NCBI RefSeq assembly: GCF_000334405.1
Contig: NC_020195.1
Coordinates: forward strand, 1 to 64,000
Direction of reading: 5' to 3'
Source of the DNA: Blattabacterium sp. (Blatta orientalis) str. Tarazona
Lineage (GTDB): Bacteria > Bacteroidota > Bacteroidia > Flavobacteriales > Blattabacteriaceae
DNA: 64,000 bases
How positions within the stretch are numbered: position 1 is the stretch's first letter; each line of letters starts with the position of its first letter. The translations under genes were made by a program, and so were the position numbers. This document shows, piece by piece, positions 10,096 through 44,867 of this stretch. The notes under the pieces were generated by a model. The model did not search any database. It saw only the letters and a list, made by a program, of their open reading frames with translations, and had not been told where the DNA came from.

Positions 10096-10833
10096 ATGAC
10101 TTTGATAACTAAAAATCTATACAAAAAGTATAAAAAAAAAAATGTGGTTAAAGATGTCTCTATTCGTTTAAATCGCGGAGAAATAGTGGGGATTATAGGT
10201 CCAAATGGAGCTGGAAAAACTACTTCTTTTTATATGATTGTAGGAATGATTCAACCTGATCAAGGTAAAATATTTCTTAATGGAGAAAATATTACTGGAT
10301 ATCCCATGTATAAACGTTCTAGAAAAGGAATTGGATATTTAGCACAAGAACCGTCTATTTTTAGAAAACTATCTGTAGAAGATAATATTTTATGCATATT
10401 AGAAATGAAAAAAAATTCCTATAAAGAAATAAAAATAAGAACGGAAGAACTTCTGGAAGAATTAGGATTACAGCATATCCGAAAATTACAGGGAGGAATT
10501 CTCTCTGGTGGAGAACGTAGACGTACTGAAATTGCTAGATGTTTAGCTATAAATCCTACATTTATTCTTTTAGATGAACCTTTTTCTGGAATAGATCCTA
10601 TAGCTATAGAAGAATTACAAAAAATTATTCTTTACTTTAAAAAAAAAAATATTGGGATATTAATTACTGATCATAATGTTCAAGAAACTTTTCTGATAGC
10701 AGATCGTCTTTATCTCATGTTTGAAGGGCAAATTTTAAAAGATGGACCTCCTAAAAAATTAATGCAAGATCCTATGGTAAAAAAAGTTTATTTGGGAAAT
10801 TATTTTGTAAAAATCCATAAAAAAGAAAAATGA
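10096..10833 (+). CDS. lptB: LPS export ABC transporter ATP-binding protein
   Basis: LptB is the cytoplasmic ATPase that drives lipopolysaccharide extraction from the inner membrane. The 245-residue protein contains Walker A GPNGAGKTT (about 36-44), a Q-loop in YLAQEPSIFRKL, signature LSGGERRRTEIARCL, Walker B FILLDEPFSGIDPIA, and the H-loop in LITDHNV. The phrase SGGERRR and the SGIDPIA stretch are specific to LptB among ABC ATPases. It is likely divergently transcribed from surA-like (59 bases apart). Its stop overlaps the ATG of the thiN-like gene at 10830 (ATGA). Confidence 0.93.
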   Translation: MTLITKNLYKKYKKKNVVKDVSIRLNRGEIVGIIGPNGAGKTTSFYMIVGMIQPDQGKIFLNGENITGYPMYKRSRKGIGYLAQEPSIFRKLSVEDNILCILEMKKNSYKEIKIRTEELLEELGLQHIRKLQGGILSGGERRRTEIARCLAINPTFILLDEPFSGIDPIAIEELQKIILYFKKKNIGILITDHNVQETFLIADRLYLMFEGQILKDGPPKKLMQDPMVKKVYLGNYFVKIHKKEK

Positions 10834-11457
10834 ATCATCGTTTTAAAGGTCCAGAAATAGAATTATTTCTTAATGGAGAACCGCCTGATATTTTCTGTAA
10901 AAAAAATTTTTTTTATAAAAAAAATATTTGCGGTTGATGGAGCTTTTTACTATTTAAAAAAAATGGGAATCCAGATAGATTATCTTAGTGGAGATTTAGA
11001 CTCTCTTTTAAAAAAAGATATTCCTTTAGGAAGTAATTTTTTTGAAACGAATGATCAAAATTATACTGATTTTGATAAAGCTTTGAAAATCATACATCAT
11101 AAAGGTTTTTTAAATGTGAATGTTTGGGGAGCTAGTGGAAAAGAACAAGATCATTTTTTGGGAAATTTATCTACAGCTTTGAAATATAAAAGAAAGTTAT
11201 CTTTAATTTTTCATGATGATTATCATTCTTATTTTTTTTCTGATAAAAAAAATATTTTTTATCAGAAAAAAAATAAAAAGATATCTCTCTTTCCATTTCC
11301 AAAAGTAGAAGGACTCCTTACTCATGGTCTAAAATATCCGATAAGTAAGGAATTATTAAAAATAGGTAAACGGATAGGAATTAGAAATGAAGCTATAGAA
11401 AATCTAATAGAAATAAGTTATCAAAAGGGAGAATTATTAATTTTCATAGAAAAATAA
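10830..11457 (+). pseudogene. Thiamine pyrophosphokinase (thiN-like), split by a frameshift in poly-A
   Basis: The gene makes thiamine diphosphate from thiamine and ATP. The natural start is the ATG at 10830 overlapping the lptB stop. That frame reads MNHRFKGPEIELFLNGEPPD, the usual opening of the Bacteroidota family, and then stops at 10935. The catalytic part continues in the next frame as KKIFAVDGA, LSGDLDS and NYTDFDKAL. Removing one A from the eight-A run at 10917-10924 joins the two parts as YKKIFAVDGA and gives about 208 residues, the expected length. A shift in the A8 at 10899-10906 or T8 at 10907-10914 would also work. The ATG at 10873 in the downstream frame gives a 194-residue product without the conserved N-terminus. 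It could be a recent pseudogene, a slippage-rescued gene or an assembly error. Confidence 0.75.
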
Positions 11458-25229: not shown

Positions 25230-25559
25230 ATGGTTTTTATATCAGATCAAGCTAAAAATAAATTGAATTCTCTTATGAAAGAAGAAGGAATTTCTAATGA
25301 AATTTCTTTCATTAGATTTGGGGTTAAAAAAGGAGGATGTTCTAGTTACTCCTATGAGCTGACTTTTGATCAAAAACAAAAAAAAGAAGATAAACTTTTT
25401 CAATATGGAGATATGAAAATATTAGTAGATAAAAATAGTTTTCCTTATTTAGAAGGAACAACGTTAGAGTATTCAGGTGGATTAAATGGAAAAGGGTTTT
25501 ATTTTAAAAATCCTAATGCTAAACATACTTGTGGATGCGGAAAAAGTTTTTCATCATAG
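25230..25559 (+). CDS. sufA: A-type iron-sulfur carrier protein (SufA/IscA/ErpA family)
   Basis: A 109-residue A-type carrier that passes Fe-S clusters to target proteins. The three conserved cysteines are visible: one in [14 protein letters not shown] (about residue 36) and two in the C-terminal CGCGKSF. It is the first gene of sufA-sufB-sufC-sufD-sufS and ends 7 bases before the sufB start. SufA is named from this context; the protein alone could also be called IscA or ErpA. Confidence 0.92.
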
Positions 25560-25566
25560 TGTGTGT

Positions 25567-27009
25567 ATGAAAGAAAATAATAAAATATTAGAAAGTTTTA
25601 CTAGTTCTGAATATAAGTATGGGTTTTATACTCCAATAGAATCGGATAAAATTCCAGTAGGATTAAGTGAAAATGTTATTCAAAAGATCTCGGAAAAGAA
25701 AGAGGAACCAACATGGATGTTAGATTGGAGATTAGAAGCCTATTCTATATGGAAAAAAATGAAAGAACCAACTTGGGCAAATATAAAATATGATAAACCA
25801 AATTATCAGGAGATCAGTTACTATTCTGCTCCAAAAAAGAAAATAAATCTGAATGATTTAGATCAAGTGGATCCAGAATTATTAGATACATTTAATAAAT
25901 TAGGAATTTCTCTGAAAGAAAAAAAACACGTTTCTGAGGTTGCAACAGATATAGTTTTAGATTCTGTTTCTTTAGCTACTACGTTTCAAGAGCAACTAAA
26001 AAGTCAGGGAATTCTATTTTGCTCCATCAGTGATGCTTTGAAGAAATATCCAGACATTGTTAAGAAATATTTAGGTTCGGTAGTTTCAAGGAAAGACAAT
26101 TTTTATGCAGCTCTTAATTCAGCTGTTTTTTCAGATGGTTCTTTTTGTTATATTCCAAAAGGAATTCGCTGTCCTATGGAATTGTCTACCTATTTTCGTA
26201 TTAATGAAAATAGAACTGGTCAATTTGAAAGAACTTTAATTATTGCAGATAAAGGATCTTTTGTTAGTTACTTAGAAGGATGTACTGCTCCGCAAAGAAA
26301 TGAGAATCAGTTACATGCCGCAGTTGTAGAAATAGTTGCTTTGGAAAAATCTGAAATTAAATACTCTACCGTTCAGAATTGGTTTCCTGGTGATAAAAAA
26401 GGACAAGGAGGTGTTTACAATTTCGTTACAAAACGTGGATTATGTGAAGAAAGAGCTAAAATATCTTGGATACAAGTAGAAACTGGGTCTTCTATTACTT
26501 GGAAATATCCATCTTGTGTTCTGAAAGGAGATTTTTCTATTGGAGAATTTTACTCTTTAGCTTTAACTAAAGATTTTCAACAAGCGGATACGGGAACTAA
26601 AATGATTCATCTGGGAAAGAAAACAAAAAGTGTTATTATTTCAAAGGGAATTTCTGCTGGAAAAGCTCAAAATAATTACAGAGGATTAGTGAAGATATCT
26701 CCTAAAGCCGTAAAATCACGTAATTTTTCCCAATGTGATTCTTTATTAATAGGAAACGAATGTGGAGCGCATACTTTTCCTTACATCAATGTATATAATT
26801 CTACCTCTCAAGTAGAACATGAAGCTACTACTTCAAAAATTGGAAAAGATCAACTATTTTATTGTAATCAACGTGGAATTGATACAGAAAAAGCAATTTT
26901 TCTCATTGTTCATGGTTTTAGTAGTGAAATTTTAAAAAAACTGCCAATGGAATTTGCGGTAGAAGCTCAACAACTTTTAGAAGTTTCCTTGGAAGGATCT
27001 GTTGGATAG
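25567..27009 (+). CDS. sufB: Fe-S cluster assembly scaffold SufB
   Basis: SufB, with SufC and SufD, forms the SufBC2D scaffold on which Fe-S clusters are built. I chose the ATG at 25567. The opening [20 protein letters not shown] then lines up with the family, whereas the frame open further upstream (from 25486) overlaps sufA. Conserved blocks are [51 protein letters not shown] and the C-terminal ANNLLIG-like block [18 protein letters not shown]. Length is 480 residues, as expected. Confidence 0.95.
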
Positions 27010-31203: not shown

Positions 31204-31509
31204 ATGATAGAAATGAATTCTATTAGAAATCAAAGATTATCTTCAATATTTTATATGGAAATAGCAGAGATTTTGATGAAAGATGAAACAAAAAAAGGTT
31301 TTCTAATTACTCTAATCAAGATTCGTATGACGCCTGATCTTAGTTTAATAAAAAGTTATATATCTATCTATCCTTTTTTAGATAAAGAAATTTTTGAAAG
31401 TATTCGTTCCAAATCTGGATTTTACAGAAAATTACTTTCTAAAAAACTTAGATATCGTGTAAAAAAGATTCCAGAATTGGATTTTTTTGTAGTAAATTCT
31501 CGTAATTGA
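31204..31509 (+). CDS. rbfA: Ribosome-binding factor A
   Basis: RbfA binds the 30S subunit during maturation of the 16S rRNA 5' region. The 101-residue protein has the KH-like layout, with the N-terminal RNQRLSSIFYMEIAEIL, the VRMTPDLSLIKSYISI-like strand (here IRMTPDLSLIKSYISIYP), and the end LRYRVKKIPELDFFV. It is shorter than typical (115-130), having lost the acidic C-terminal tail. Its stop overlaps the TTG start of the permease gene. Confidence 0.9.
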   Translation: MIEMNSIRNQRLSSIFYMEIAEILMKDETKKGFLITLIKIRMTPDLSLIKSYISIYPFLDKEIFESIRSKSGFYRKLLSKKLRYRVKKIPELDFFVVNSRN

Positions 31510-32711
31510 ATCATTTTTATTTGAGAACTTCTTTTTACATAACTATACGCTATTTCTTTTACAAAAAAAAAACTAACATTGTTAACCTCATAATTTTTTT
31601 GTCTATCATATCACTCAGTATATCTACATTTTCTTTATCTACCATTTTATCTGTTTTTTCAGGATTAAAAGACTTAAATATTAAATTCTATCAAAATAAC
31701 TACCCTGATATTATGATTTCTTCTTTTAATGGAAAAGATATCTTCTTTCATGAAAATGTTTTAAATAAAAAAATGAGATCAATAAAAGGAATTATGTGTT
31801 TTTCTAAAACAATGGAAAAAAAAGTTTTTTTCCATTATAAAAATGAAAAATATTTTTTTCACTTAAAAGGAGTAGATTCAAAATATGAAGAAGTGATGAA
31901 TCAATTTAAAAAAATAACCTTCCAAGATAAAAATGATAAAAATTTATCCCATAATAAATTGGATCTATATGTAGGTCTATCATCCATTTTTCCGTTTTTA
32001 TTTATGGATAAAATAGAAAAAGACTCTATGAGTATTAGTTTTTTTTCCTATAAAAAAAACTCTTTTTCCATTTTTAATGCAAAAAAAGTTAGAATAAAAG
32101 GTCTTTTTCATTTTAACCAAGAAATAGATCAAAAATATTTATTTTGTGATATTCAAAATTTGATTAAGAAAAATGCTTTTCATTCTCTGGAAATAAAAAT
32201 TCATCAAAAGGAAAATATAGATAAGATAAAAAAGATTTTAAAAAAAAAATTTGGTCAAAAATTTAGGATAAAAACACGTACAGAAGAAGAAAGAGCTTTT
32301 TACAAAGTAATTAATACAGAAAAAATATTTATTTATTTTTTATTTAGTTTAATAACTGTAATGACGGCTTTTAACTTAATTGGTGCTATTTTTATTTTAC
32401 AGTTAGATAAGAGAGAGAATATTTTTCTCTTATGGAGTTTTGGTTATTCTTTGTATAGAATTAGAAGAATATTCTTTTATATAGGAGTCCTTATCAGTGT
32501 ATTTGGATGGTCTATTGGAGTATTGGCTACTTTTATTCTATCTCTCTTGCAAGAGAGATATCATTTATTTAAAATTGGAAGAAAAATTCCATTTCCTATG
32601 AAATTTACCATAGAGGATTTTGTAATGATGACATGTATTATTTTAATAGTTGGTCTCTTTATCTCTTTCATTTCCTCTAAAAAAATAGAGATGAATTATT
32701 CATCTAGGTAG
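31506..32711 (+). CDS. LolC/LolE-like ABC transporter permease (FtsX family)
   Basis: A 401-residue membrane protein with one N-terminal helix (about 25-50), a large extracytoplasmic domain, and three C-terminal helices (from about 275). This is the MacB/FtsX-type topology. The N-terminal RYFFYKKKTNIVNLIIFLS and LSVFSGLKDLNIKF segments match Bacteroidota lipoprotein-releasing permeases. It would extract lipoproteins from the inner membrane, in line with lgt. The start is TTG at 31506 overlapping the rbfA stop. Its end overlaps the convergent rnz gene by 16 bases. The partner ATPase is not in this window. Confidence 0.82.
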   Translation: MNHFYLRTSFYITIRYFFYKKKTNIVNLIIFLSIISLSISTFSLSTILSVFSGLKDLNIKFYQNNYPDIMISSFNGKDIFFHENVLNKKMRSIKGIMCFSKTMEKKVFFHYKNEKYFFHLKGVDSKYEEVMNQFKKITFQDKNDKNLSHNKLDLYVGLSSIFPFLFMDKIEKDSMSISFFSYKKNSFSIFNAKKVRIKGLFHFNQEIDQKYLFCDIQNLIKKNAFHSLEIKIHQKENIDKIKKILKKKFGQKFRIKTRTEEERAFYKVINTEKIFIYFLFSLITVMTAFNLIGAIFILQLDKRENIFLLWSFGYSLYRIRRIFFYIGVLISVFGWSIGVLATFILSLLQERYHLFKIGRKIPFPMKFTIEDFVMMTCIILIVGLFISFISSKKIEMNYSSR

Positions 32712-36389: not shown

Positions 36390-36539
36390 TTATTTTTTAA
36401 AATTAGAAACTGTTAATTTTTTTCTCCCTTTTTTTCTTTTTCTAGATAGAATTTTACGACCTGTTTTTGTGGACATACGTTTTAAAAATCCATGAACATT
36501 TACTTTTTTTCTATTAGAAGGTTGATAAGTTCTTTTCAT
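36390..36539 (-). CDS. rpmH: 50S ribosomal protein L34
   Basis: A 49-residue basic protein, [18 protein letters not shown]..., with the L34 core ([16 protein letters not shown] and [11 protein letters not shown]). Too small for automated cut-offs and easily missed. It starts one base after the end of the DUF4258-like gene region (stop at 36541-36543). rnpA and yidC do not follow on the other side, where the M14 gene lies in the opposite direction. Confidence 0.95.
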
Positions 36540-36540
36540 A

Positions 36541-36930
36541 TTATTTTATATTTTTTCTAAAAAAAATAATTTTCTTTATATATATAACATCTAAATTTTC
36601 TTCTATAACAAAGATTATTTTCCTATTTTTATCTTTTATCTCAATATGAGAAATCAGAGGATATAGTTTTGTTTTTAACAATCTTTTTTTAAAATGATTT
36701 TTCCTTTCTTTAAAAGCTCTGATTTGATGAAAATAGGGTTCATGTTATTTTTTTTTACAATTCCTAATTGTATCTTCATTTATTTCAAATATTATTTTCT
36801 TCCTTTTTATATTATTATCTAATATTTTTTGATGATAAGAATAAGAGACAGGAGGTGAGCAGTATAATAAAATCATCAAACCAATAATAAAACCTGTTAA
36901 GAAACAAATAAAACGCCTAAAAAAATTCAT
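36541..36930 (-). pseudogene. DUF4258-like small membrane protein, two compensating frameshifts
   Basis: The first frame gives MNFFRRFICFLTGFIIGLMI..., an N-terminal membrane helix seen in flavobacterial DUF4258-type proteins, and stops at 36745 after KKK. Removing one A from the nine-A run (36748-36756 on the plus strand, T9) continues as NNMNPIFIKSELLKKGKIIL. Adding one A at the seven-A run (36684-36690) then restores the original frame as RLLKTKLYPLISHIEIKDKN and runs to a TAA at 36541-36543, right before rpmH. The total of 390 bases (129 codons) and the order of blocks fit the family (about 125-130 residues). Read without shifts, only a 61-residue peptide is made. The family identity is by pattern only. 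Confidence 0.65.
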
Positions 36931-37096: not shown

Positions 37097-38365
37097 ATGA
37101 TTGATAAGCAAAAAACTATTGCAAAAAAAATCTCCTTACAAGGAGTAGGATTATATACGGAAAAAAACGTAACCATAACTTTTAAACCAGCTCCTGAAAA
37201 CTCAGGATTTCTTTTTGTAAGAACTGATATAGAAGAAAAACCTAGTATAAAAGCACATCTTTCATTGTTGTTCAATGAAACTACGGATCGTGGGATTATT
37301 TTAGAAAAAAATGGATTGAAAATTTGTACTAGTGAACATGTGTTGGCTGCTCTTATGGGAATGGATTTAGATAATGTGATTATAGAATTGGATAACATGG
37401 AATTTCCTATAATGGATGGCTCTTCAAAATATTTTGTCGAGGCTATTGAAAAAGCAGGATTGATAGAACAAAATGCAGAAAGAGGATATTACTCGATCAA
37501 AGAAATTATATCTCACGCGGATTCAAAAACAGGAGGAGAGATTATTGCCACCCCCTCTAAAAAATTAGAAATAGTATCCCTGGTTGATTTTGATTCTAAA
37601 TTTATAAATATGCAAAATGCTGTACTAAAATATCCAGATCAATTTAAAAAAATAGCGAATTCAAGGACTTTCTGTTTTCTTTATGAAAAAGAAAATTTAA
37701 AAAAAAACGGAAATATCTCCCGTTCTTCCTCTTCTTCTAACGAAATAGCAAAACATAATCTTTTGGAGATTATGGGATACTTAACTTTAATAGGAGTTAA
37801 ATTAAAAGGAAAAATAATTGCTTACAACACAGATTCACATATAAATACACAGTTTGCAAGGAAATTAATTCAAAATATCCAAACACAAAAAGATATTCCA
37901 AAATTTGATTTAACAAAAAAGCCTATTTTGGATATTAGAAATATTATGAAAATTTTGCCTCATAAACCTCCATTTCTCTTAGTAGATAAAATTATGGAAT
38001 TAACCGAAGATTGTGTAATAGGGGTTAAGAATGTAACGATGAATGAATCTTTTTTTATGGGCCATTTTCCTAAAGAGCCAATCATGCCTGGAGTATTGCA
38101 AATAGAATCTATTGCACAAGTAGGTGGAATTCTTGTATTAAACCAAGTAAAAAATCCAGAATATTATTCTACATATTTTTTAAAAATAGATAAAGTAAAA
38201 TTTAAAAAAAAAGTAATTCCTGGAGACTTGTTAGTTTTTCAAGTAGATTTGTTAGAACCAATAAGAAGGGGGATAGTCCATATGCAAGGAAAGGGATATG
38301 TCAATAATCAACTTGTAGTTGAAGCAGAAGTTATGGCAAAAATAGTAAAAATTCAGGAATCCTAA
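37097..38365 (+). CDS. lpxC-fabZ: Fused UDP-3-O-acyl-N-acetylglucosamine deacetylase / 3-hydroxyacyl-ACP dehydratase (LpxC-FabZ)
   Basis: The N-terminal LpxC domain (about 1-275) performs the committed step of lipid A synthesis. Zinc-site elements are SEHVLAAL, the LIGVKLKGKI block and the DSHINTQFAR region. The C-terminal FabZ domain (about 280-422) dehydrates 3-hydroxyacyl-ACP and contains ILPHKPPFLLVDKI and the active-site GHFPKEPIMPGVLQIES. This fusion is characteristic of Bacteroidota. In free-living relatives lpxD precedes and lpxA follows. Neither is here: efp comes 22 bases after the stop. Confidence 0.95.
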   Translation: MIDKQKTIAKKISLQGVGLYTEKNVTITFKPAPENSGFLFVRTDIEEKPSIKAHLSLLFNETTDRGIILEKNGLKICTSEHVLAALMGMDLDNVIIELDNMEFPIMDGSSKYFVEAIEKAGLIEQNAERGYYSIKEIISHADSKTGGEIIATPSKKLEIVSLVDFDSKFINMQNAVLKYPDQFKKIANSRTFCFLYEKENLKKNGNISRSSSSSNEIAKHNLLEIMGYLTLIGVKLKGKIIAYNTDSHINTQFARKLIQNIQTQKDIPKFDLTKKPILDIRNIMKILPHKPPFLLVDKIMELTEDCVIGVKNVTMNESFFMGHFPKEPIMPGVLQIESIAQVGGILVLNQVKNPEYYSTYFLKIDKVKFKKKVIPGDLLVFQVDLLEPIRRGIVHMQGKGYVNNQLVVEAEVMAKIVKIQES

Positions 38366-40584: not shown

Positions 40585-43847
<3,263 letters not shown>

Positions 43848-43919
43848 ATCTAATAACTTTTTAAATAAAAATCTAAAGTTTATAATCAAAATAAGTAAAA
43901 TCCAAAGTAAGCATTCTTT

Positions 43920-44867
43920 ATGTTAAAGAAAAATAAAATAATGGATTGTGTAATTCTTGGATCTGGTCCAGCCGGATATACTGCGGCTATATATGCGGCA
44001 AGAGCAGACCTTAACCCTATCCTATTTGTCGGAATGCAACCGGGAGGACAATTAACATCTACAACAAAGGTTGATAATTATCCAGGGTTTCCTGCAGGAA
44101 TTAGTGGAAATGAATTTATGGAAAATTGTAAAAAACAAGCAGAACGTTTTAATACTATTATTATTCATAAAACCATTACGAAAGTAGATTTTTCTGATAA
44201 AAAAGGCGGAATACATCGTGTTTATATGATGAAAAATGAAGAAAATATAGAAAGTAAAGGGATTATCATAGCTACAGGTTCTAGTCCTAAATTTTTAGGA
44301 ATGGATAAAGAAAAAAAATTTTTGGGATTTGGAGTTTCTTTTTGTGCTACTTGTGATGGTTTTTTTCATAAAGGAAAAGATGTAGCTGTTATAGGAGGAG
44401 GAGATACCGCTTTAGAAGAAGCTAGTTATTTGTCAAAAATTTGCAGAAATGTATATTTGGTAGTTAGAAAAAATTATTTCAGAGCTTCTAAAGCTTTACA
44501 ATATCGAATCTCAAAAATAAATAATGTGAATATATTTTTTTGTTCTCAGATTACAAAAATTATGGGGAATGATTTTTTAGAAGGAATTCAGATATTTAAC
44601 ACTAAAAATAAAATTAGTAGAACTATTTTAATAAGCGGGTTGTTTATTGCTATAGGTCATTCTCCTAATACAAAATTGTTTAAAAATCAATTAAACTTAG
44701 ATGAAAGAGGATATATCATTGTAGAAAAAGGAAGTACTAGTACTAATAAACCAGGAGTATTTGCTGCAGGAGATGTCCAAGATCCTACCTATCGACAAGC
44801 TGTCACTTCTGCTGGAACAGGATGTATGGCGGCTTTAGATTTGGAAAAATATTTATGTTTGTGTTGA
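43920..44867 (+). CDS. trxB: Thioredoxin reductase
   Basis: A flavoenzyme that reduces thioredoxin with NADPH. The FAD motif GSGPAGYTAAIYAARA is at the start, the redox pair C142/C145 is in CATCDGFF, and the NADPH motif VAVIGGGDTALEEA follows. The FAD C-terminal motif is PGVFAAGDVQDPTYRQAV. At 315 residues it is complete. The start may be ATG at 43920, or the ATG at 43941 (MDCVILGSGPAG). It is divergent from the HsdR_N-like gene and 27 bases before glyS. Confidence 0.93.
   Translation: MLKKNKIMDCVILGSGPAGYTAAIYAARADLNPILFVGMQPGGQLTSTTKVDNYPGFPAGISGNEFMENCKKQAERFNTIIIHKTITKVDFSDKKGGIHRVYMMKNEENIESKGIIIATGSSPKFLGMDKEKKFLGFGVSFCATCDGFFHKGKDVAVIGGGDTALEEASYLSKICRNVYLVVRKNYFRASKALQYRISKINNVNIFFCSQITKIMGNDFLEGIQIFNTKNKISRTILISGLFIAIGHSPNTKLFKNQLNLDERGYIIVEKGSTSTNKPGVFAAGDVQDPTYRQAVTSAGTGCMAALDLEKYLCLC

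Follow-up and report, generated by a model that had tools for sequence, protein, structure and literature searches.

Rescue of single frameshifts by slippage has been described for poly(A) runs of the insect endosymbionts Blochmannia and Buchnera, and for Blochmannia about 30% full-length transcripts have been cited (PMC3017870). In Buchnera, 151 of the 157 transcription insertions were located in homopolymer runs, deletions were few there, and not one frame was seen to be restored (PMC5574713). Rescue by slippage does exist, although at a single run and not at two. A gene resembling these cases occurs in the window, by which we mean the whole analysed stretch of 64,000 nucleotides from the Blattabacterium symbiont of Blatta orientalis (genome of 638,184 bases in total, chromosome of 634,449 bases): the genome is again that of an AT-rich insect endosymbiont, and one-base indels at or beside A runs interrupt an otherwise conserved gene.

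A second point of reference is provided by DUF4258-like proteins of free-living Flavobacteriales, which the Blattabacterium proteins resemble in a profile match over the full length (E from 2e-7 to 1e-4, 123-124 aa), in the N-terminal hydrophobic segment and, for most of the free-living proteins, in a conserved pair of glycines. The gene adjoins an alanine dehydrogenase-like gene in the free-living species, whereas in Blattabacterium it lies between rpmH and lpxC-fabZ. The initial annotation of the window had described this gene as carrying two opposite frameshifts that cancel. That observation is largely right, the position given for the first lesion is wrong, and the idea of a meaningful compensation is unsupported; what we probably see is ordinary loss, in which a protein has kept its membrane anchor and shed a C-terminal domain that is dispensable.

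Reading frames and the two lesions

Homology of the gene extends along the minus strand from 36930 to 36541 and passes from frame a to frame b and back to frame a, as initially described, and the frame translations contain exactly one internal stop in the direct frame, the number that had been counted between the shifts. The path starts with a frame-a ORF (36745-36930, minus strand; 61 aa plus a TAA at 36745-36747) that comprises the N-terminal membrane anchor and a linker, is present in the ORF list and has an N-terminal match in 40 other species. Between the lesions lies a frame-b segment beginning MNPIFIKSELLKKGKIIL (36691-36744, minus strand, the start being approximate), which is seen in the frame translations and is conserved with the two closest relatives. 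The remainder of the C-terminal domain is again in frame a (36541-36683, minus strand, read from the frame translations and the sequence), and its stop (36541-36543) ends one base ahead of the ATG at 36539 of the downstream neighbour rpmH (ribosomal protein L34; 36390-36539, minus strand, in the ORF list), exactly as claimed. The total of 129 codons had been taken for the family length, which we can support; the single-frame homologues measure 119-127 aa. The stop of the 61-aa ORF is located 205 bases upstream of rpmH, and under standard decoding this ORF is the only product expected. No RNA element was identified with Rfam, and a scan for promoters performed near chance. On the minus strand at 37132-37145, a terminator-like stem with a T8 tail falls inside the beginning of lpxC-fabZ, immediately upstream of the gene studied here.

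The closest relatives (G021 and G018) possess the same gene in a single open frame of 127 and 124 codons, respectively, and single-frame genes of 119-124 codons occur in five more distant Blattabacterium species; the a-b-a pattern therefore corresponds to two indels in a once-intact gene. Over the gene and the start of rpmH, the DNA of the window is 95.0% identical to that of G021 and 92.7% identical to that of G018, and alignment with both reveals two opposite one-base indels in the window copy. The first is an extra A (36745-36746, minus strand) in the window sequence A9-T-AA-CATG, aligned with A9-T-A-CATG of the relatives; it changes TAC to TAAC and thereby creates the TAA that ends the 61-residue product, with an ATG in frame b one base past this stop (TAACATG). 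The initial annotation had placed this shift in the A9 run itself (36748-36756, minus strand), but the alignment puts the extra A just 3' of an unchanged run of ancestral length: nine As are found in the window, G021, G018 and G044, and eight in the other four intact genes.

The second lesion was correctly located at the A7 run (36684-36690, minus strand). The run is, however, itself the product of a one-base loss, and a pairing of A9 and A7 as slippage sites is unsupported. The relatives have an extra base there: the window reads AAAAAAAG where they read AAAGAAAAG or AATAAAAAG, and the site itself appears in their alignments as AAAGAAAA or AATAAAAA. In frame b, the A7 run reads A AAA AAA. A slippage-rescued frameshift gene would be expected to have its indels inside homopolymers, which is not the case here, the first lesion lying outside the A9 run and the second having created the A7 run.

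Family identity and distribution in Blattabacterium

A profile built from the seven intact Blattabacterium proteins matches full-length proteins of free-living Flavobacteriales of 123-124 aa (1-122 of G085, 2.3e-7; 1-119 of G120, 2.6e-7; 1-121 of G127, 1.0e-4), and by this full-length similarity the gene belongs to a flavobacterial family of membrane-anchored DUF4258-like proteins. Neither the composite sequence from the window nor the seven full-length Blattabacterium proteins matched Pfam DUF4258 (PF14076) itself, and the free-living homologues, three of four of which resemble that family, scored 16.3-23.7 bits, below the Pfam gathering cut-off of 25 bits that we used as the threshold of membership. 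Calling the protein DUF4258-type was thus fair as a lead but not as a statement of membership; its similarity to DUF4258 is weak, and its identity as a short flavobacterial protein with a membrane anchor is supported. Pfam and NCBIfam offered no family for the Blattabacterium proteins, and a sequence search of the PDB returned nothing convincing.

Comparison of the syntenic region upstream of rpmH had been proposed as a check, and we took this region from 49 Blattabacterium genomes, rpmH being found in all 49. Only seven of these species keep the full-length gene and most have a short one: the N-terminal segment alone is found in frame in 34 others, namely 33 short-form species and L045, the latter with an intact 28-aa version. 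The in-frame segment measures 22-71 residues in the 33 species and the window, and the most reduced genome (511 kb) retains 27 residues, MNFAKRLIFFFMGFFIGILILVILKQI. No trace of the gene was found upstream of rpmH in L042 and L049. Relatives restricted to the short form had been named in advance as evidence against a meaningful double frameshift, and this is indeed what most of the genus displays, but not G021 and G018, where the gene is full length. The full-length state is scattered inside one part of the tree, and C-terminal loss is seen in other parts too. Given this scatter and the full length of the free-living relatives, the genus has probably lost the C-terminal domain on more than one occasion.

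Five species (L035, L040, L046, L050 and L052) exhibit a different arrangement, with the membrane micro-ORF frameshifted at a T9 or T10 run and the downstream glycine-pair segment conserved; the shift is common to the sister species L050 and L052. These five are better candidates for slippage at a single run than the gene in the window.

The C-terminal domain evolves with an omega of about 0.17 in the species keeping it, as estimated with a codon model. The C-terminal segments of the window and G021 are still close, with a pairwise dN/dS below 1 (0.33 when both segments are combined), as expected for a very recent loss and also for a domain still in use. When substitutions in the two segments are polarised, about 1.5 synonymous changes and about 2.5 replacements fall on the branch leading to the window, too few to separate decay from rescue; because there is only this handful of changes, the loss looks recent.

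The retained transmembrane segment

Residues 7-24 of the frame-a ORF (36859-36912, minus strand) form a predicted transmembrane helix, with a 17-residue Kyte-Doolittle maximum of 2.54 from residue 7, and hold the motif G-x-x-x-G (Gly13 and Gly17). A single N-terminal transmembrane helix is predicted throughout the 41 Blattabacterium members examined: the 17-residue hydropathy maximum is 1.95 or higher in each of them and begins at residues 5-10. Arg6, Gly13 and Gly17 are invariant in the 41 sequences, and the third positions of their codons vary. With the codon model fitted on a tree from neighbouring genes, the likelihood for residues 1-24 of the 33 short-form species peaks at an omega of about 0.2 (lnL -1006.7, against -1041.9 at an omega of 1), the gap of 35 log units serving as a guide and not as an exact probability, as the fits have more parameters than the 24 codons. 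The shifted frames of the same DNA peak at an omega of about 0.5-0.8. The case for purifying selection on the N-terminal segment in the short-form species is strong, if not exact.

Positions 36859-36930 and the homologous sites in 40 other species thus encode a transmembrane segment of about 24 aa under purifying selection, often within an ORF of fewer than 35 aa, and ORFs of this size carrying the segment are probably missed by gene callers. The stub is presumably made and would work as a small helix-packing membrane protein, with an N-in topology suggested by the positive-inside rule. The C-terminal loss itself is ordinary, and of more interest is its by-product, the membrane stub, which deserves the attention of specialists: a tiny, probably unannotated membrane peptide outlasts its partner domain in genomes down to about 510 kb, and nature thereby tests which part of an uncharacterised protein family does the work.

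Explanations for the interrupted gene

The explanation that we favour as probable is ordinary loss of the C-terminal domain. An insertion just after the ancestral A9 run, presumably the earlier of the two lesions, produced the stop and would have left a 61-residue protein consisting of the intact transmembrane anchor (N-in, with the GxxxG helix-packing motif) and a basic linker, so that the C-terminal domain would no longer be made in this symbiont. The one-base deletion, lying beyond the stop, was probably free to accumulate and would have had a nearly even chance of cancelling the first lesion. Such a loss would be tolerated because selection in the genus mainly preserves the anchor, most species having the stub only. 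The window retains the segment that the genus retains, and what is broken in it is missing from most of the genus.

The initial annotation saw in the paired lesions more compensation than random decay would yield. However, of two independent indels of plus or minus one base, the second offsets the first about half the time. The insertion here introduces a stop that shuts the direct frame immediately: unless recoding occurs, translation does not reach beyond it, and the deletion by itself cannot give back the protein. The usual selection for a compensating indel is therefore inapplicable. The two lesions have the look of common gene reduction and not of some trick of decoding, and the case warns against inferring recoding from cancelling frameshifts near A runs before relatives have been compared.

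An assembly error, with one or both indels being false and the gene in reality intact or singly frameshifted, is rather unlikely. It would fit the position of both lesions at or beside A runs, as 454 pyrosequencing, which is error-prone near runs, was used in part for a related Blattabacterium genome (Bge). Nevertheless, an error behind both indels is unlikely because the frames agree with those of the relatives in nearly all of the approximately 55 ORFs compared over 64 kb; only two other genes are broken on the window side, one of them with a multi-base deletion too, and two independent errors inside about 66 bases would be an improbable coincidence. Sequencing error across the whole window was likewise rejected, frame breaks being rare in the comparison with G021 and G018. 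The first of the two other broken genes (43374-43954; 202 aa and intact in G021) has suffered a one-base loss from an A run and a 17-base deletion, and the second (10830-11454; 209 aa in G021) is split between two frames; here the window and G021 differ by two bases close to the gene's start, next to A and T runs. Conversely, two genes with an open frame in the window, one of 507 aa (25486-27009) and one of 401 aa (31506-32711), are frame-broken in G021.

Recoding that would yield some full-length or C-terminal protein from the window gene seems unlikely. Both frame changes could be bridged at the runs adjoining the lesions, the single-frameshift precedents cited above exist, and the pairwise dN/dS below 1 of the shifted segments is in line with such a rescue. 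RNA polymerase would have to slip twice in one transcript, by a deletion at A9 (one A lost, or else two gained) and the insertion of one A at A7; the first event must thus go in the direction that is rarer in runs (PMC5574713), and the A7 run is short. The A9 run, moreover, is ancestral (A8-A9 in the intact genes) and does not call for any particular explanation, and this route is unnecessary and quantitatively unlikely. Alternatively, ribosomes might reinitiate at TAACATG and slip by -1 at A AAA AAA, but reinitiation would yield a C-terminal piece devoid of the anchor.

That the N-terminal segment serves rpmH as a leader or translational-coupling ORF, and is not a working membrane peptide, is very unlikely. 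The short ORF does end within a few bases of the rpmH start, or overlaps it, in many species; yet the position of its stop relative to rpmH varies widely, between 235 bases upstream and 29 bases within the gene, with the window near the upper end of this range, and selection acts on amino acids (two glycines and an arginine), not just on an open frame. No more credible to us is a combination in which the locus has as its selected product a transmembrane microprotein (about 25-60 aa) that several lineages derived from the larger DUF4258-like protein, and slippage (at A9 and A7 here, at T9 or T10 within the micro-ORF of the five other species) still sets the length made.

The slippage genes of Blochmannia and Buchnera have one lesion, whereas the gene in the window has two, the first of which lies beside the run and creates a stop; they differ further in that the affected domain has here been lost in most relatives. 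Unlike the DUF4258-like proteins of the free-living species, the window copy no longer has its C-terminal frame. With the stepwise erosion known from obligate endosymbionts it shares small indels and the fact that lineages of one genus have repeatedly lost the same part, but here the erosion stops at a defined border, with the transmembrane segment kept under selection.
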